A DNA stretch of 64,000 nucleotides from Natrinema sp. SYSU A 869 (GTDB lineage: Archaea > Halobacteriota > Halobacteria > Halobacteriales > Natrialbaceae), in assembly GCF_019879105.1 (NCBI RefSeq), contig NZ_CP082247.1, positions 1-64,000 on the forward strand, written 5' to 3'. A program made the position numbers and the translations under genes. The notes beneath the pieces were generated by a model that was given only the letters and a program-made list of their open reading frames with translations, did not search any database and was not told where the DNA came from. The first letter of the stretch is position 1, and each line of letters begins with the position of its first letter. This document shows positions 7,549 to 19,213 of the stretch, one piece after another.

Positions 7549-10496
7549 ATGGTTAGTCAGCAGCGCCGAGACGTACTCGCGGGTATCGGAGCGGGAACGG
7601 GTCTGTCCCTCGTCGGGGGCATCGCAACTGCGGAGACCGACGGAACTAGCGACCGGAACGACGAAACGGCCGAGGGATCGTTCGACGACCGCATTACCGA
7701 CCTCCTCGAGCGACTCACGATCGACGAGAAGGTGTCGTTGCTTCACCAGTATCAGCCGCCGATTCCGAGCGCCGGACTGGACGCGTTCCGGACCGGGACG
7801 GAAGCGCTCCACGGCGTCGCGTGGCTGGGCGAAGCGACCGTCTTTCCGCAAGCGATCGGCCTCGGGAGCACGTGGGATCCGGCCCTGATCGAACGCGTCG
7901 GTGACGCCGTCGGCGACGAAGTGCGCGGGAAACACAATGCGAGTTCCGGGGGCGTCGGCCTCAACGTCTGGTCGCCGACGGTCGACCCTCTCCGCGATCC
8001 GCGCTGGGGGCGAAACGAGGAGGGGTACGCCGAAGATCCGCTGGTGAGCGGCGAAATCGCGACGGCGTACACCGCCGGGCTACGCGGAGACGATCCGACG
8101 TACCGCAAGACGGCACCGATACTCAAACACTTTATCGGGTATAACAACGAGACGGAGCGGACGACGACAAACGCCGAACTGCCGCCCAGGCTGCTCCGCG
8201 ACTACTACCTCCCGTTCTTCCGGCCGCCGATCGAATCCGGGGACGCGGTCGGAGTGATGGCGTCGTACAACCTCGTCAACGGCCGTCCGATGACGGCGTC
8301 GCCGCTGCTGGATCGCACCGTCCGCGAGTGGGCACCCGACAGGCGGGCGGTGCTGAACGTCAGCGACGCGTGGGCACCGGTGAACCTGACCGGCGCACAG
8401 GAGTACTTCGAGTCGGACGCGAGGGCTCGCGCCGCCGCGTTGCTCGCCGGGCTGGACAGTTTCACGGAGTTCGGGTCCGACAGTTCGACGACGGTCGACG
8501 CGATACACGGTGCGCTTGAGGAGGGCGACCTGCACGAAGCCGACGTCGACGAGGCGGTCGGTCACGTCCTGACGGTCCGAGCGCAACTCGGTGAGTTCCT
8601 CGAGCCGTCGGCGGACCCGTACGCGGATCTCACGGCCGAGGTCATCGGCCGTCCCGAACACCGGGAGCTCGCTCGAGAGGCAGCGCGAGCACAGACCGTC
8701 CTCCTCGAAAACGACGGTGAGGATCCCGTCTTACCGCTCTCGGTGGAGGACACCGTCGCCGTCATCGGCCCGCTCTCGGACAGGGTGTTCGAGGACTGGT
8801 ACAGCGGGACGCCGCCGTATCGCAGCAGCCTCCGGGACGGCTTGCGCGATCGGCTCGGCTACGACCGGATCAACGCTGCCGTTGGCGCTGATCGGATCGC
8901 ACTCAGGGAGCGCTCGTCGGGGGACTACGTGACCGCCGGCGTCGGGAACGGCGGCGGCGTCCTCGGACTGCAGGAGACCGATGCACCCAGCGTCCAGCTG
9001 TTCGAGGCCGTCCAGTGGACGGAGACCGCTTGGACGCTGCAGGCGACGGCGAACGGTCGGTACGTGACCGTCGACGACGAGCACCTCGTCAACTCATCGG
9101 AGCGGCCGGCCGGGTGGGAAGTGGTACAGGAGGCCTTCGAGTTCGTCGACGTCGCCGATGGCGCGGTCGCGCTTCGCCACCCGAGCAGCGATCAGTACGT
9201 AACGATCGAGGAGGGGTCGCTCCGCGTCGGTGCCGACGACCAGTCCGATGCCGCCACGTTCGACCGCGAGGTGCGCGACGACGGGCTCGAAGCCGCGGTC
9301 GAGGCCGCCACCGACGCCGATGTCGCCGTCGTGATGGTTGGCACCCATCCGCTGATGGGCGGCCGCGAAACCCGAGATCGCGACGAACTCGCCCTCCCGC
9401 GGTCACAGCGTGAACTCATCGAGCGCGTCGCCGATGCCCAGCCGCGGACCGCGATGGTCCTGCAGAGCAGTTATCCGGTACATGCCGACGGCGCGGAGGA
9501 CCGCGTGCCGTCGATCCTCTGGACCAGTCACGCCGGCCAAGAGACCGGTCGCGCGCTGGCCGACGTGCTGCTCGGTGACGTCTCCCCTGGCGGCCGGCTG
9601 ACACAGACCTGGCCGCGCTCGGCCGACCAGCTCCCCGACATCACCGAGTACAATATCACCGAAACGGGGATGACGTACCGCTACGGACAAGAGGACCCCC
9701 TGTACGCGTTCGGACACGGGCTCTCCTACAGCAGCTTCGAGTACGGCGACCTCCGCATCTCGCCGAAGGGCCACTCGAGGAAGGCGAGACGGCGACCGTC
9801 AGCGTCCGCGTCACCAATACGGGCTCGACGGCCGCCGACGAGGTCGTGCAGGCCTACACCGCACAGCGCCAGTCGCGGACCCACCAACCGGACCGGGTCC
9901 TCCGCGGCTTCGAACGGGTGCACCTCAAGCCCGGCGAGAGCACGACCGTCGAACTCGCGATCGAGTACGATGAGTTCTCGTTCTGGGACGTCACGCGCCA
10001 GCAGCGGGTCGTCGAACGGGCGACACACGGGGTGTTCGTTGGGTCCGCATCCGACGATATCCGAGCGCGCGGGTCGATCCGGGTAGACGGCGAGAAGATC
10101 CCGCCGCGGGACCTCTCCGCGGAGACGCGAGCCGTCGACGCCGATGACTGGTCATGGTCGGAAATCGAGTTGCTCGACCGGTCGCGGTCCGAGGGGACGG
10201 TCGTCGGCATGACTGACGGATCGTGGCTCTCCTTTGCCGACGTCGACCTGCGGAGCAAGCCGACCGAAGCGACCGTCTCGGTTGCGAGAGCGGACGACGG
10301 CGCAGCCGCGCTGGAACTGCGTCGGGGCTCGCCGTCCGGTCCATTGCTCGGTCGAACGGCGGTCCCCTCGACAGGTGACATCTACGAGTACGCGGAGCAA
10401 ACGCTGTCGGTGACGGGGGCGATCGGGAACAACCGAGAACTATATGTCGTAGTCCACGGCGGCGACGTTCGCTTGCACACGATCCGCCTCGAGTGA
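7549..10496 (+). CDS. Exported glycoside hydrolase family 3 enzyme (beta-glucosidase/beta-xylosidase type), frame broken once
   Basis: Once one base is restored this is about 982 residues. A Tat-like signal (QQRRDVLAGIG) leads. The GH3 N-domain follows with the nucleophile Asp in LNVSDAW near residue 268, then the GH3 C-domain into which a beta-trefoil-like block is inserted (about residues 445-575, with repeated YVT elements). After these come an FnIII-like domain and a C-terminal CBM6-like domain (about 860-980). The frame changes at 9768-9774: the first frame gives YGDLRISPKG, the next LEEGETATVSVRVTNTG. One missing base in GGGCC restores it. Linkage specificity is unknown. It faces the importer operon divergently. 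Confidence 0.85.
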
Positions 10497-11722: not shown

Positions 11723-13363
11723 TCAGTCGCCGGTCGGCACCACTGTGATCGGACCGAGCGGTCCGTTGTGCAGTCCGCCGCCGCCACCGCCGTCGTACAC
11801 CCGAATTGCGACCACGTTCTCGCCGCCGAACGCGACAGTCGACGGCGGAACAGTGTAGCGTCGAGGTTCGCTCCACGCGGTCTCGTACCCGTCCTCGGGG
11901 AACGTTCCGGTCTGCCCGATCTTCTCGCCGTTGAGGAACGTCTCGTCGACGTCGTCGATCGCTCCGAGCGGGATCTCCAGGGTGTAGCCGGCCCAGCTTT
12001 TGGGAACGTCAACCGTCGTTCGGTACCAGCCGAACACGTCGTTTTCGGTGTAGTCCGAGTGGTCTTCCCAGTTCGCCGGCGCGTCGACGGTCTCCCAGTC
12101 GCTTTCGTCGTACGCCGGATCCGCCCACGTCGGGTCGTCCCCCTTACGGAACCGCCACTCGCCCTCGAGCGAGAGACGGGGTGCGGTAAACAGGAGCGGC
12201 TGTTCGTCGCCGACGGCGACCTCGAACACGCCTGTTTCGGGCGCGTCGTACTCGAACGAGATGCTCGTCTTTGCGCCGGGGTCGAGGTCGACCGTTCGGT
12301 TCGAGACGACCTCGTCGGTGACGGTCAGCGGGACATCGATCCGCTCCGGTTCCGCACCTACGTTCCTGACGACCGCGGACGCGGTGATCGTCCCATCATC
12401 CGCGTCGTGCTCAGCCTCGAACCCGCCGATGGGCTTCGTCGAGGCGAACGCGTACGGGAGGCGACGCCGGGAGAGCGCCATCGGCGACGGCTCGTCTCTC
12501 GTTCGCGGACGGAAGCCGACGACGAACTCGAAGGGACCGTCAGGGACGACGTGGTGCTCCGGGGACGGCTGAACGGGAGTCCCGCCGACGCCGGTTACGG
12601 CGTGATCGACGTTGAACAGGACCCCGTCGCGCGGCTCGAGTTGGTAGTCAAAGCGCGCCCGATCGAGGTTCGCCACGTCGTGTGCGCTGACGGTGACCTG
12701 CGGCTGGCCGAACGCAACGAGACCAGTGCCGTCGTCGGCCGAGAGCGATGCCCACCTAACATCCGTCTTGTTGCCGTAGTCCTGCGGGCGAACGTAGGGG
12801 ACGTACTGGTCCGCAACGGCACCGGCGTAGGTACCGATCTTCGTTCCGTTGTTGCGATCGGGATACGTCTCCTGTGGCCCGTTCCCGTACCACGATAGCT
12901 CCGCGAAGTCGTCCGGGACCTCGAGTTGCACGCCGATCTTCGGGAGCCAGTTGGTGATCCCCTCTCGAAGCGCATCGTTGGGCACGGCGCGAACGCCGAG
13001 CAACAGGTCACCAGTCCCGGAGATGTGATAGCAGTAGGTCGTCTCGAGGGCGGCGTCGGCGTCGGATGCGGAAACCAGCGTATCGATTTCGACGCGGGTC
13101 ACGCCGTCGGCGACGTCGGCCGTCTCAACGGACTCGACCTCATGTTCGAGGCGATCGAGTCCGAGCGCGTACCACTCATCGGCCTCCGCTGCCCCCCAGT
13201 CGACCGACTCGTTCGAGATGGGCGTCCGCCAGACGTTCACCAGCGGACCGCGCTCGATGAACTCCCGCCCGCCAGCCTCGAGGGAACAGAGCGTCCCGAG
13301 ACTGGGGTCGAACGTGTATTCGAAATCCGGTCCATCGATCGTAATCTCGTCGTCAGTCGTCAT
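11723..13363 (-). CDS. Beta-galactosidase small-subunit-like protein (GH2 C-terminal part plus jelly-roll domain)
   Basis: Residues 1-270 match the beta-sandwich that ends LacZ-type enzymes (Bgal small chain): WRTPISNE near 45, YGNGPQETYPDR near 160 and a WASLSADDGTG block. Then comes a beta-rich linker, and residues 400-546 form a galactose-binding-like jelly roll resembling the GH2 sugar-binding domain. It has no catalytic barrel and no signal peptide. It lies 76 bases after the catalytic half (13440-16478), in another frame, so the pair resembles LacL/LacM heterodimers. Alternatively this was once one gene split by mutation. Confidence 0.8.
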   Translation of the reverse strand: MTTDDEITIDGPDFEYTFDPSLGTLCSLEAGGREFIERGPLVNVWRTPISNESVDWGAAEADEWYALGLDRLEHEVESVETADVADGVTRVEIDTLVSASDADAALETTYCYHISGTGDLLLGVRAVPNDALREGITNWLPKIGVQLEVPDDFAELSWYGNGPQETYPDRNNGTKIGTYAGAVADQYVPYVRPQDYGNKTDVRWASLSADDGTGLVAFGQPQVTVSAHDVANLDRARFDYQLEPRDGVLFNVDHAVTGVGGTPVQPSPEHHVVPDGPFEFVVGFRPRTRDEPSPMALSRRRLPYAFASTKPIGGFEAEHDADDGTITASAVVRNVGAEPERIDVPLTVTDEVVSNRTVDLDPGAKTSISFEYDAPETGVFEVAVGDEQPLLFTAPRLSLEGEWRFRKGDDPTWADPAYDESDWETVDAPANWEDHSDYTENDVFGWYRTTVDVPKSWAGYTLEIPLGAIDDVDETFLNGEKIGQTGTFPEDGYETAWSEPRRYTVPPSTVAFGGENVVAIRVYDGGGGGGLHNGPLGPITVVPTGD

Positions 13364-13439
13364 TGCGTGCTCACTCTCCGTCGTGCGTGCGTTCGAAGCT
13401 CTCGGGGGTCATTCCCCGGTACGTCGGTCCCGGTCACGG

Positions 13440-16400
13440 TCATCGCTCCACCGTGATGCTCGGCATCGATTCGACCGCCTCGAGGGGCGGGTGCGGGACG
13501 TCGAAGGGGACCGCGAACTGTTCGAAGGCAATCTCGTGTCCGGCGTCGGCCCACCGGGCGTCCTCGGCGAGGGCGACGCTGATCGTCAGCCAGTACTCCG
13601 CTCCCGGCTTGAGATCGGGTTCGTCGAACGGGACGGTCACCTCTTCGGTCTCTCCCGGATCTGCCTCGAGCGATAACGTCCCGTCCTGTAGCACCGTCTC
13701 GCCGTCGGTCAGCCGCCAGGTTGTCTCGAGGGCCGAGAGGCTTGTGAAGTGAAACCGGTTGTCGATCGAGACGATACCTGCAGCCGGATCGACCGGATCG
13801 ATCCCGACAGGCTGGTGGGCCTTCTTCAGGTCCCACAGCTCCGGCTGTGGGGTGCGGTCGGCGAAGATCGTCCCGTTGATACAGAAGGGACTCGCCCCAT
13901 AGGTCCTATAGGTCCCCTCGTCGCGGAATTCCTCGAACGAAAGGTCAAGGACCGCGTCATCGCTCGCGCCGGCGTGGGCCGACTCGAGTTCCGCGGGCGA
14001 GAGCGCTCGATCGGAGATTCGGACCGACTTGAAGACGGCGTTAGACAGCCAGCCCTCGTAGCCATCGGTATGCAACTCCGCGTTTCGCCCGATGCTGACG
14101 GGCTGGTGAGCGTGGTTGATGCTGCCCGTGTGTTCGGTCGCGTCGAGCAGTTCGCCGTCGACGTACAGCCGCAACTCCGAACCGGTGTGGACGCCCGCGA
14201 CGTGATGCCAGGAGCCAATCCAGTCGTCAGGCACCGCCGCGCTGGCGGTGACCCACTCTTCGTCGGAATCGTAGACAAACCACTCGATGGTCTCCTCGTC
14301 GGCCATCTGGAGCGCGTACTGCGTGTCGCCTTTCGTGACGAACGGGTCCGCGCCAGTCCAGGGCTCTCGCGGCTTGACGACGGCCTCAACGGTGAGTCCC
14401 GGCTTGGTGATGTCAAGGCTCGGATCGCGGTAGAGTTCTACCCAATCGTCGAGTCCGGACAGGGCAAGCGCGCTCCCGCGGTCGGTCTCGACGACGGAAG
14501 GATTGCCGTGGAGCGTGCCATCGTTCCCGTGTCCGGACTCGTCGGGCGTGACGATCAGGTCCTCGAATAGCGTCTGGTCGACCCAATCCCAGACGAACCC
14601 GCCCTGGAGCTGATCGTACTCATTGACCAGCTCCCAGAACGACTCCATCAGTCCGAGGCTATTCCCCATGGCGTGACTGTACTCGCCCATGATCACCGGG
14701 CGCTCTTCGTCCTCGGATTGGGCGATCTCCTCGAGTTCATCGGGGCTCACGTATCGCGGACCGACGATCGGCGCGAACGGCGCGTCGCCGCCGTTGTTCG
14801 CCTGATGGTAGAGGAAGCGCGTGTCATCGACCTCGGTCGCGTAGTCGGCCATCTCGAAGTGAACGGGGCCGAGTCCGGCCTCGTTGCCAGTGCTCCACGT
14901 GAAGATCGACGGGTGGTTCTTGTCGCGCTGGATCATGCGGCGGAACCGGTCCATGAACGATGGGTCGAACTCACGGTGCTCGGTGACGAGTTCCTCGTTC
15001 TGGTGGGTCTCGGCGTTGACCTCGTCCTGCACGTAGAGCCCGTACTCGTCGGCCAGGGCGGCGAACTCGGGATCGTTCGGGTAATGAGAGGTCCGGACCG
15101 CGTTGACGTTGAACCGTTTCATCAACTCGAGGTCCTCGCGGATCCGCTCCGTCGTCATCGTCCGACCGTGAACGGGATCGTGTTCGTGGCGGTTCACGCC
15201 CCTGAATGCGACAGATTCGCCGTTGACGTGGATCTGGCCGTCGATAATCTCGTACTCGCGAAACCCCACGCGCTCGAGTTGTGCCTCGGTCGTGTTGTTC
15301 GAGCCGGCCGGAGCGAGTTCGAACCCGAGCCGGTACAAGTGGGGGTGCTCGGCGGACCACTTGCGCGGGTCCGAGACGTCCGTCGAGAGCGCCACATCGA
15401 CTCGCTCGCCGACGGGGACGTCGACGGTCTCCTCGAGCGTCGCGACGTGGTCGTCGTCGGGATCGAACAGCCGCGCGCGGAGGGTGTAGGAACTCGTTCT
15501 CCCCTCACGTTCGCCCGCCCCCTTTCCTTCTCCCTCCGCTCCTTCCGTCGAGCGGTCGGCGACCTCGGCGTCGATCGTCAGCGTCGCGTCCTCGTAGTCG
15601 TCGTCAAGGTCGGTGCGGACATCGTAGTCGCGAAGGTGGACTTCGGGCGTCGAGTACAGGTACGCGTCCCGGTAGATGCCCGCGAAGTGCCACATGTCCT
15701 GATTCTCGAGGTACGTGCCGTCAGACCACCGGTACACCTGGACGGCGACCGTATTCTTGCCGGACTCGAGGGCCTCCGTGACGTCGAATTCGGCTGGAGT
15801 CATCGCTCCCTGGTCGTAGCCCACGTACCGGCCGTTGACCCAGACGAAGGCGGCCGATTTGATCCCCTCGAAGCGGAGGAACGTCCGCCGCTCTTTCGTC
15901 CAGTTTCCGGGCACTGTGACCGTCCGGCGATAGGTCCCGACCGGGTTGATCGCATCGGGGACCGCCGGCGGATCATAGGGATACATAGGCACTGGAACGT
16001 TCCGATACAGCGCGTGGCCGTACCCCTCGCGCTGCCAGACCGACGGGACATCGATCGTCTCCCACTCGTCGACAGCATCGAAGTCGTCCGGCGCTTCGTC
16101 GGGAGTAATCGACCACAGGAAGTCCCACTCCCCGTCGAGCGACCGAACGAACGGCGAGCGCTCCCGTTGGTCGCGACGGGATGCGCCGCGTCGCTCCCCG
16201 CCGAGCGCTGATTCGACCGTCGGAAACGGTATCGTCGGGACGTGTGATTCGGTTTGATTCTCCGCCACCATCGCCGGAGTCTCGATGTACTCCTCGAGGG
16301 TGAACTGGCCCGACGCTTCCCCTCGAGCCGCGCTGCGATCGGTGGCGCTCGTTCGATTCCCCGACGCGAGCCCCGGGAGGAGGGTGGCTCCGCCGGACGC

Positions 16401-16478
16401 AATTAGGAAGTGACGCCGGGAAACCGACGGTGGATGATCTGCTGACTCGACTTGTTGCTCGGTCGTTTCGCGTTTCAT
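13440..16478 (-). CDS. Exported GH2 beta-galactosidase, catalytic part, with a LamG domain inside the barrel
   Basis: This 1012-residue protein has a Tat signal (SRRHFLIASGG near residue 20). GH2 sugar-binding and Ig-like domains follow, then the TIM barrel with acid/base Glu in STGNEAG (about residue 532) and nucleophile Glu in MGEYSHAMGN (about 599). After WDWVDQTL a LamG-like domain of about 200 residues interrupts the barrel, which resumes at FCINGTIFADRTPQPELW. A low-complexity Gly/Glu/Arg stretch lies near residues 310-330. The protein ends at TVER before the small domain that is encoded next. The ATG at 16478 is chosen because the Tat signal follows it. It probably removes beta-galactosyl groups from pectic side chains. 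Confidence 0.88.
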   Translation of the reverse strand: MKRETTEQQVESADHPPSVSRRHFLIASGGATLLPGLASGNRTSATDRSAARGEASGQFTLEEYIETPAMVAENQTESHVPTIPFPTVESALGGERRGASRRDQRERSPFVRSLDGEWDFLWSITPDEAPDDFDAVDEWETIDVPSVWQREGYGHALYRNVPVPMYPYDPPAVPDAINPVGTYRRTVTVPGNWTKERRTFLRFEGIKSAAFVWVNGRYVGYDQGAMTPAEFDVTEALESGKNTVAVQVYRWSDGTYLENQDMWHFAGIYRDAYLYSTPEVHLRDYDVRTDLDDDYEDATLTIDAEVADRSTEGAEGEGKGAGEREGRTSSYTLRARLFDPDDDHVATLEETVDVPVGERVDVALSTDVSDPRKWSAEHPHLYRLGFELAPAGSNNTTEAQLERVGFREYEIIDGQIHVNGESVAFRGVNRHEHDPVHGRTMTTERIREDLELMKRFNVNAVRTSHYPNDPEFAALADEYGLYVQDEVNAETHQNEELVTEHREFDPSFMDRFRRMIQRDKNHPSIFTWSTGNEAGLGPVHFEMADYATEVDDTRFLYHQANNGGDAPFAPIVGPRYVSPDELEEIAQSEDEERPVIMGEYSHAMGNSLGLMESFWELVNEYDQLQGGFVWDWVDQTLFEDLIVTPDESGHGNDGTLHGNPSVVETDRGSALALSGLDDWVELYRDPSLDITKPGLTVEAVVKPREPWTGADPFVTKGDTQYALQMADEETIEWFVYDSDEEWVTASAAVPDDWIGSWHHVAGVHTGSELRLYVDGELLDATEHTGSINHAHQPVSIGRNAELHTDGYEGWLSNAVFKSVRISDRALSPAELESAHAGASDDAVLDLSFEEFRDEGTYRTYGASPFCINGTIFADRTPQPELWDLKKAHQPVGIDPVDPAAGIVSIDNRFHFTSLSALETTWRLTDGETVLQDGTLSLEADPGETEEVTVPFDEPDLKPGAEYWLTISVALAEDARWADAGHEIAFEQFAVPFDVPHPPLEAVESMPSITVER

Positions 16479-16598: not shown

Positions 16599-17070
16599 CA
16601 GTGGTACTCAGTCCCGCTGTTCGTCCGCGCCGGGAGCATCGTCTCGATGGGGCCGGTCGTCCAGCACACCGGTGCGAAACCCGATGCGCCGTGGAACCTG
16701 CGCGTCTACCCCGGCGTGACGGCTCGTTCGAACTCTACGAGGACGCCGGTGACGGCTACGCGTACGAGGACGGGGAGTATGCGATCACGCCGATCACGTG
16801 GGACGAGCACGCCGGCGAACTCACGATCGGCGACCGCGACGGGTCGTTCCCCGACCTGACCGAAATGCGGGAGTTTCGGATCGTCCCCGTCGAGAAGGGT
16901 GCCGGTATCGGCGTTGATGAGCACAACCCGCAGACGACGATCACCTACGAGGGGACGAAACGACCGTCTTCGTCGACCGCTATCACTGCCAGCCGGTCAC
17001 CGTCCGTCGTCTTACGAGACGGGGCACAAACCGGTGGCCGGTCCGATTAGTGTCAGTAGGTTATTCATAA
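16599..17070 (+). pseudogene. Remnant of a GH31 alpha-glycosidase (C-terminal beta-domains only)
   Basis: Three frames in succession give a GH31 tail. Bases from 16599 read WYSVPLFVRAGSIVSMGPVV and LRVYPG. From about 16720 the next frame reads DGSFELYEDAGDGYAYEDG and LTIGDRDGSFPDL (the DUF5110-like end of alpha-xylosidases and alpha-glucosidases). From about 16955 a third frame reads TTVFVDRYHCQPVTVRR to the TAA at 17068. The shifts are single missing bases near CCGGC and GGGG. The catalytic barrel is absent, so even with the shifts repaired this is a truncated gene. Its left end abuts the promoter of the GH2 gene. Confidence 0.8.
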
Positions 17071-17318: not shown

Positions 17319-19213
17319 TCAGTCGTCCTCCCAGGGGAGTTCGTAGCTCGGGTCGTTCACGAAGCGGTCGAGGGCCGCCGACAGCGACAGTCGCGATCCG
17401 CTCGGGAGCGATACCCGGATCGCGTTCGACTCGGACTGCTCGCGCTCGCCGTCGTACTCGAGCGACGTGAATTCGTGTTCGCCGTAGGCACCGGCCTGCA
17501 CGATCAGTTCTCGGTCTTTGCCACCGCTGTTGACCAGCGTGACGGTGACGCCCTCGCGGGTGACGTCCTCGACTAGCGCCGCGACGCCCGGTGGAAGCCC
17601 GGGACGCTCGCGTTCGGGGTCGAAGTGGCGGACCTGTGCCATCACGAGGCCGCCGTAGTAGACGGGTTGTGGCGCGCCCATCGTGAGTTGGAGCAGTCCG
17701 CGGTGAAAGACCGGATTCCGGTCGCGGAGGTAATCCTCGTCGACGTCGTCGGAGACGCCGCCTTCCTCGCGCATGAGCGCGAGCTGGTCCTGCACGTGAG
17801 CGTGATTTGCTTCCATGATCCGCTCGGGATAGACGGAAAAGTCGCCGTCGAGGTACGCCAGCCAGGCGTACTCGTGGCCGGCACCGTGTTTGTTCGACGG
17901 GCGGTAGTCGACTTGTGTCCAGTCTCGCGTTCCCCAGTCGCGAAGCCGGTCGACGCGCGAGCGATCCTCCTCGGCGAGGGACATGTACCAGAGGTGGAAG
18001 GCGTAGGGGTCGTCCCGGTGGGGCTTGAACTCGTACCAGCCGTCGCGCCAGAGTACCTCGCCGTCGTCCTCCGTGAGCACTCCCGACGCATCATAGTGGT
18101 AGTCACCGGGATCACCGTACTTGTGCGGGACATACAGCGTGTCGTGGACGGCGTCCTCGCTGACCTTGATCCCGTTCTCAATTAGCACGTCGAGTTGCGA
18201 GCGTGGGAACTCGAGGTACTCCCGGTCGCCCTCCAGCAGAACGGCGTTCTCCGCGGCGACCGTCGGTCCGATGCCGACGTAGTGCCAGCCGCCCCACGAC
18301 CAGCCGTAGTAGCCACCAAACCACTTGCCGCCGGTGTACTCCCCGATCTCGCCCGAACGGCCGACGTTGTCGGGGATGATTCCGCCGTTTTCGGCGGTGC
18401 GCTCGCGCCACGCCTCGAGATAGTCGGTGACCCACTCCCGGTACCGGTCGTTGCCGGTGTGGAGGTAGGCGTTGGTCATCAGGCTCGTGACGTTGAGATT
18501 CAGCGGGATGTCCCCCTTTGCACACCGTTCGTTGAGGACCTCGAACAGTCGCTCCTCGTTTCCGGGGTCGAGCAGATCCGTCGCCTCGTCGAACTCGAGG
18601 TCCCGCCATGGGAGCCCGTGGCTCGCCCAGCGGTAGTCCGCGCCGTAGGGGTGGTGTTCGTACGCCGAAAAGTCACAGAAGTCCGGCCCATACTTCCGCT
18701 CATCGGCCCGCGGACGAGTCGGTTCTCGCCGTCGTAGTTGTTCACGTTTGCGTCATCGAAGTAGAGGTGTGCGAACCGCTCGGCTCGATCGACGACGAGG
18801 TCGTTGCCCGGTGCCGCCAGCCCCATGTTGTAGGTAAAGAGGTTGCCCTCGCCCATATGAAACCAGTCGCGACACTGCTCGAACTCGTCGACGACCATCG
18901 GATGGCCGAACGGCGTGTCGGTATCGGTACCGCGCTGCAGCGCCCCCTCGTAGGCGTCTTGGGCACGCTCGAGGAATCGGTCGTCACCACCCATCGCGTA
19001 CACCAGTGGCCAGTTATAGAACCCCTCGATCACGTCGTCGAAGCCGTCGACGCCGACGTGGTCGTCGGGCGGCCAGTAGGGCTCGCCGTCCTCGTCGAAA
19101 TAGTCGTCGACGAACCGATCGACGGCGTCCGCCATCGTCTCGAACAGATCACGCTGTAGCATGGCCCAGTCCGGTGGTCGTCTCTCGGTGTTGCTCGCCT
19201 GAATGTCGTACAT
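17319..19213 (-). CDS. Unrecognised alpha/alpha-toroid-like enzyme of a polysaccharide locus, frame broken once
   Basis: With one base restored at 18687-18689 (CCC) the two open parts join as SMGPDFCDFSAYEHHPYG, giving about 631 residues. The first 430 look helical and Trp/Tyr/Asp-rich like toroid glycosidases or lyases (YWPPDDHVGVDGFDD, DWFHMGEGNLFTYNMGLAAP, GGKWFGGYYGWSWGGW). The end is beta-rich (VALVEDVTREGVTVTLVNSGG). No signal peptide is present, so it is probably cytoplasmic. A TATA-like ACTATTAA (19240-19247) lies 30 bases before the ATG. I do not recognise the family; position among pectin genes suggests an oligosaccharide substrate. Confidence 0.6.

Follow-up and report, generated by a model that had tools for sequence, protein, structure and literature searches.

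A LacZ-type glycoside hydrolase encoded by two adjacent genes, divided at the domain 4/5 boundary, in haloarchaea

The window analysed here comprises the first 64,000 nucleotides of contig NZ_CP082247.1 of Natrinema sp. SYSU A 869, and its minus strand carries two adjacent genes across which Pfam finds the LacZ-type GH2 domains 1-5 in order. The first encodes the large catalytic chain (13440-16478, minus strand), an ORF of 1012 aa with its ATG at 16478, its TGA at 13442-13440 and the C-terminus ...ESMPSITVER, which holds GH2 domains 1-4 and a LamG insertion (PF02837 Glyco_hydro_2_N, PF00703 Glyco_hydro_2, PF02836 Glyco_hydro_2_C, PF13385 Laminin_G_3 and PF16353 LacZ_4, the last at aa 903-991). 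Both glutamate motifs, acid/base and nucleophile, are intact, as NEAGLG and EYSHAMGN align to Thermotoga maritima LacZ. The LamG (concanavalin A-like) domain (13986-14450, minus strand; PF13385, aa 677-831) lies between the TIM-barrel motifs VWDWVDQ and FCINGTIFADRTP, and is also present in one-chain relatives, both actinobacterial and haloarchaeal. Inspection of the N-terminal region (16353-16478, minus strand), SRRHFLIASGGATLLPGLAS, revealed a twin-arginine Tat motif, SRRHFLIASGG. This motif occurs in the large half only, as had been predicted, and was seen in the large halves of all eight species that carry the split pair and in nearly all haloarchaeal one-chain relatives.

The loop bearing the aglycone-site tryptophan (W999 of E. 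coli) is a trait of the LacZ/LacLM type and not of GH2 overall. This loop is absent from the split enzymes and their one-chain relatives alike, with GVGGTP where LacZ has GGDDSW, and the Trp-less form is common to the whole LamG-bearing subfamily, so lactose should not be assumed to be the substrate. Loss of the loop as a result of the split was ruled out, because the one-chain relatives lack it too.

The second gene encodes the small chain (11723-13363, minus strand; 546 aa), which starts at the ATG at 13363, ends at 11723 and is read at a frame offset of +1 relative to the large ORF. By Pfam it contains LacZ domain 5 (aa 11-280; PF02929, Bgal_small_N, E 4e-55), followed by a C-terminal module of about aa 300-546 (11723-12463, minus strand), a Glyco_hydro_2_N/BetaGal_ABD2-like sandwich matched by PF02837 and PF13364. 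This tail of ~240 extra residues is missing in nearly all one-chain relatives, and modules resembling it are found on GH97 enzymes. The small chain is kept in all eight species, in each of which it starts with M-T or M-S and has no signal peptide motif. An AlphaFold model of the small half, built from an 8-sequence input, was poor (pLDDT 48.8). Both halves match the NCBIfam model beta_gal_Bga2A, each under the full-length cut-off, and the only names that RefSeq gives the small half are glycoside hydrolase and jelly-roll protein, so the pair has gone unrecognized as a single enzyme.

The original prediction was that the large protein ends at TVER, where LacZ-type enzymes pass into the C-terminal sandwich, and that the sandwich begins 76 bases later in a new frame with its own ATG. 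Both points were borne out. The distance from the large stop to the small ATG is 76 nt. One-chain relatives match both halves inside one ORF, with only a few residues between the end of one match and the beginning of the other; as the two matches nearly abut, the boundary between domains 4 and 5 is exactly where the cut falls. No single insertion or deletion can bypass both the stop of the large frame and a stop in the frame of the small half, given the order in which they stand, in agreement with the expectation that rejoining the halves needs at least two changes. Three features go beyond what had been predicted: the double-ATGA mini-ORF described below, the inserted LamG domain and the additional module at the C-terminus of the small chain.

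Whole-genome searches revealed the same large/small pair in seven other haloarchaeal species, giving eight in total. Four belong to the same family as the window (Haloterrigena salina, Haloterrigena salifodinae, Halosolutus gelatinilyticus and Natrialba asiatica) and three to other families of the order (Haladaptatus salinisoli, Haladaptatus pallidirubidus and Halocatena marina). The assignment of genome G025 to Haloterrigena salifodinae was inferred from its 118-nt gap and its neighbouring genes, and genome G428, a near copy of the Halocatena marina genome, was left out of the species count. Searches of additional families and of a class-wide sample found no further split pairs. The large and small genes are adjacent in every case, and the identity of the small half to that of the window ranges from 59 to 83% across the split species. 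In the Natrialba asiatica assembly, Nextera adapter sequence and an N lie at the end of the large half (L037, 6657-6720), so that this end is unreliable, although the mini-ORF lies past the artefact; the Tat motif of the Natrialba large half is in a neighbouring frame, beside an assembly N. The locus order of GH2 large, GH2 small, Gfo/Idh, GH3 and sugar ABC transporter genes is kept in Haloterrigena and Halosolutus, and the Haladaptatus locus is the same as in Haloterrigena but without GH3. These neighbours mark a carbohydrate-use locus.

A survey of ORFs at the fetched loci, which covered archaeal and bacterial relatives, found both parts in one frame in 84 ORFs, and separate halves in the eight species as well as in a few broken or truncated genes (such as L043, L079, L088 and L155). 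Two of these, L079 and L088 from a single genome (G259), are LacZ-type genes lying in several overlapping frames each, which are probably errors or pseudogenes. In a maximum-likelihood tree of 33 proteins (8 split, 16 one-chain haloarchaeal and nine bacterial), the eight split genes formed one clade (SH-aLRT 98), with the one-chain haloarchaeal and bacterial relatives outside it, and a single change of state suffices to explain the split. Purifying selection acts on both halves, with a pairwise dN/dS of 0.11-0.23 (large) and 0.15-0.29 (small). Taken together, the clade, the dN/dS values and the conservation in eight species indicate that an ancestral one-chain gene was split once, long ago, and that the split has been maintained since. 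The original prediction had offered the splitting of a single gene as one of its two readings; distant relatives do have one gene, but the split is an old one that has been kept in seven other species under selection.

The division had also been likened to that of LacL/LacM. LacLM enzymes are heterodimers encoded by two overlapping genes (PMC6783300). On a Lactiplantibacillus plasmid, whose record was located with a LacM sequence used as bait only, LacL (626 aa) and LacM (319 aa) are encoded by genes that overlap by 17 nt, rather than being separated by a bridged gap such as the 76 nt in the window. The likeness holds as an analogy, as the two systems share adjacent genes in the same order, a large catalytic chain and a small domain-5 chain, and LacM starts at the position homologous to the start of the haloarchaeal small half, the start of domain 5. 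As kinship it probably does not hold. LacL has no LacZ_4, its C-terminus ...FADRTPKPAMQEVKYYYGLHK being the end of the TIM barrel, whereas the haloarchaeal large half keeps domain 4; LacL/LacM also lack the LamG domain, the Tat signal and the C-terminal module, all three of which the haloarchaeal pair has, and retain the Trp of the GGxDSW motif, which the haloarchaeal pair does not. LacM and the small half share 22% identity. The retention of domain 4 points to separate origins, as does the tree, which covered the split genes and their one-chain relatives and placed the former beside LamG-bearing haloarchaeal genes with the bacterial ones outside; the haloarchaeal split seems to have arisen independently. 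Lactic acid bacteria and haloarchaea thus appear to represent at least two occasions on which LacZ was split where domain 5 starts, and this repetition suggests a site at which LacZ tolerates being two chains.

Among one-chain enzymes, the LamG-bearing GH2 proteins of haloarchaea and actinobacteria (such as L038, L080 and L095) share the domain order and the LamG insertion with the split pair, have GVGGTP or GVGDTP instead of the Trp loop as it does and, in haloarchaea, bear a Tat signal as the split large half does. They differ in being encoded by a continuous gene and, in most cases, in lacking the extra tail beyond domain 5. Six haloarchaeal one-chain enzymes (L039-L042, L044 and L087) have two LamG domains, one in the TIM-barrel region and another inserted in domain 5. 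E. coli LacZ and Thermotoga maritima LacZ (6sd0) share domains 1-5 and the catalytic motifs with the split pair but, unlike it, are single chains with no LamG and with the Trp999 loop present.

We consider it likely that the two genes encode a LacZ-type GH2 exo-glycosidase whose two subunits stem from one old fission at the domain 4/5 boundary and are co-exported through Tat, with coupled translation of the two as a less certain part of the proposal. Within this proposal, the large chain, with its Tat signal, TIM barrel, catalytic residues and LamG domain, would fold in the cytoplasm, where domain 5 of the small chain would dock on it non-covalently, as it does inside one-chain LacZ. As the small chain has no export signal, it is probably assembled onto the large chain and carried out with it, and the folded complex would leave through Tat, the small chain hitchhiking on the large one. 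A non-covalent two-chain enzyme exported in this way is what the packing of LacZ domains and the one-sided signal suggest. Hitchhiker export through Tat is established for HybOC and PaoABC, in which, as in the split pair, one subunit alone bears the Tat signal (PMC4273604). Those are cofactor-bearing redox enzymes, whereas the haloarchaeal pair is a putatively exported glycosidase; with one chain lacking an export signal, it would make a clean archaeal example of a glycosidase that leaves through Tat by hitchhiking.

Furthermore, the gap between the two genes of the window is spanned by a mini-ORF of 27 codons (13360-13443, minus strand), MTVTGTDVPGNDPRELRTHARRRVSTQ, whose ATG overlaps the stop of the large gene and whose stop overlaps the ATG of the small gene, each time as ATGA. 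A mini-ORF with ATGA at both ends spans the gap in seven of the eight split species, with gaps of 76, 118, 118, 115, 139, 46 and 46 nt giving mini-ORFs of 27, 41, 41, 40, 48, 17 and 17 codons, respectively; Halocatena has none, with a bare 12-nt gap after a TAA stop. In Haloferax volcanii, 4-nt ATGA overlaps of stop and start couple gene pairs by termination-reinitiation (PMC6728339, PMC10666635), and gene pairs with short overlaps often encode subunits of one complex (PMC10666635). Reinitiation in Haloferax is almost lost once the gap reaches about 20 nt (Huber et al., PMC10666635). The pairs of Haloferax volcanii have one direct overlap, whereas the split pair has two successive overlaps linked by the mini-ORF. 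Given the limit of about 20 nt, the mini-ORF may be a relay. With less confidence than the steps above, we propose that the ribosome, on ending the large chain, would restart at the overlapping ATG of the mini-ORF and, on ending the mini-ORF, at that of the small chain, which would keep the supply of the two chains balanced.

The reading of the mini-ORF as a translational relay across gaps of 46-139 nt, balancing both chains of a Tat-exported enzyme, is a tentative one, to which we give somewhat less than an even chance. Close to an even chance attaches to the alternative that there are two subunits but that a separate Shine-Dalgarno sequence or promoter drives independent translation of the small half, and that the mini-ORF is accidental. 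A GGAGG shortly upstream of the small ATG in Haladaptatus agrees with independent translation, although Shine-Dalgarno sequences are weak or absent in the other species. Short GC-rich frames of this kind would be open by chance with a probability of 0.53-1.0 per gap, given their composition, and the codon usage of the mini-ORF is not coding-like. The spacer is mildly coding-like in the small half's frame, which may be a remnant of coding sequence and not a mark of a relay. No selection on the mini-ORF peptide was visible; its sequences differ between lineages and close pairs differ by few substitutions. Against an accident, all seven bridged gaps are 1 mod 3 in length, for which the chance, counting five distinct lengths, is (1/3)^4 = 0.012, and ATGA stands at both ends in 7/7 of the species other than Halocatena, whereas just 60 of 598 gene ends in the background are ATGA. 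This background was drawn from sequence of two related genomes with a home-made gene caller. Among its 155 gene pairs, a bridge under strict rules was found in two, one of them the pair of the window (1/154 for the others), and under loose rules in nine; relay mini-ORFs were not enriched genome-wide and were about as frequent as chance. With bridges near chance frequency within one genome, it is conservation between species that makes the case for a relay. If the relay reading is correct, the mini-ORF would get round the limit that distance otherwise sets on haloarchaeal reinitiation, and the conserved double overlap offers a testable proposal for how genes may be coupled across over-long gaps.

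It is unlikely that the small half has taken on a role apart from the large half, as a free protein that binds carbohydrate or regulates, leaving the large half to work alone. The C-terminal sandwich module that the small half has acquired, known otherwise from GH97 enzymes, would suit such a role, but the small half always neighbours the large half, is conserved at a similar rate and has no signal peptide of its own. In addition, solved structures show domain 5 within the core of LacZ.

Less probable still is that frameshifting or stop readthrough joins the halves during translation into some one-chain enzyme. In seven species the large gene stops at UGA with C or U as the next base, four of the seven have the frame of the small half open over the gap, and the halves of Halocatena are in frame, separated by just TAA and four codons. 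However, in the window, Haloterrigena salifodinae and Natrialba the frame of the small half is shut by in-frame stops, a route through the mini-ORF would require two successive -1 shifts, and no slippery motif was recognized on inspection by eye. Fusion of the chains by programmed frameshifting or by readthrough was set aside as unsupported, with the small half's frame closed by stops in three species.

The split is real and no sequencing error; for an error or a decaying pseudogene, which we regard as highly improbable, speak the further frame breaks of this genome (in a GH3 gene near 9770, a GH31 remnant at 16611-16960 and a LacZ paralogue at 844.2 kb), but the identical cut occurs in seven other species, in separate assemblies, and both halves have been under purifying selection since the split. 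The original prediction had raised the case of relatives with a continuous gene and of bases missing at this point; the near relatives depart from it. It had also set the split apart from one-base errors elsewhere, and this distinction stood, since the GH3 gene near 9770 and the LacZ paralogue each have a single frame break and relatives in which the gene is whole.

The paralogue (L043; same genome, contig 1, about 841.5-844.7 kb) is LamG-free and has its frame break, at contig position 844.2 kb, in domain 5; its closest relatives are one-chain. Two neighbouring ORFs in the window (17322-19213, minus strand), neither matched by Pfam, may be one interrupted glycoside hydrolase. The GH3 gene (7549-10493, plus strand), with Fn3-like and CBM6 parts, is intact in Haloterrigena salifodinae and Halosolutus. 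Adjoining the start of the large half is a C-terminal remnant of a GH31 gene (16611-16960, plus strand; DUF5110) in two frames, of which Halosolutus has a shorter remnant and Haloterrigena salifodinae the whole gene.
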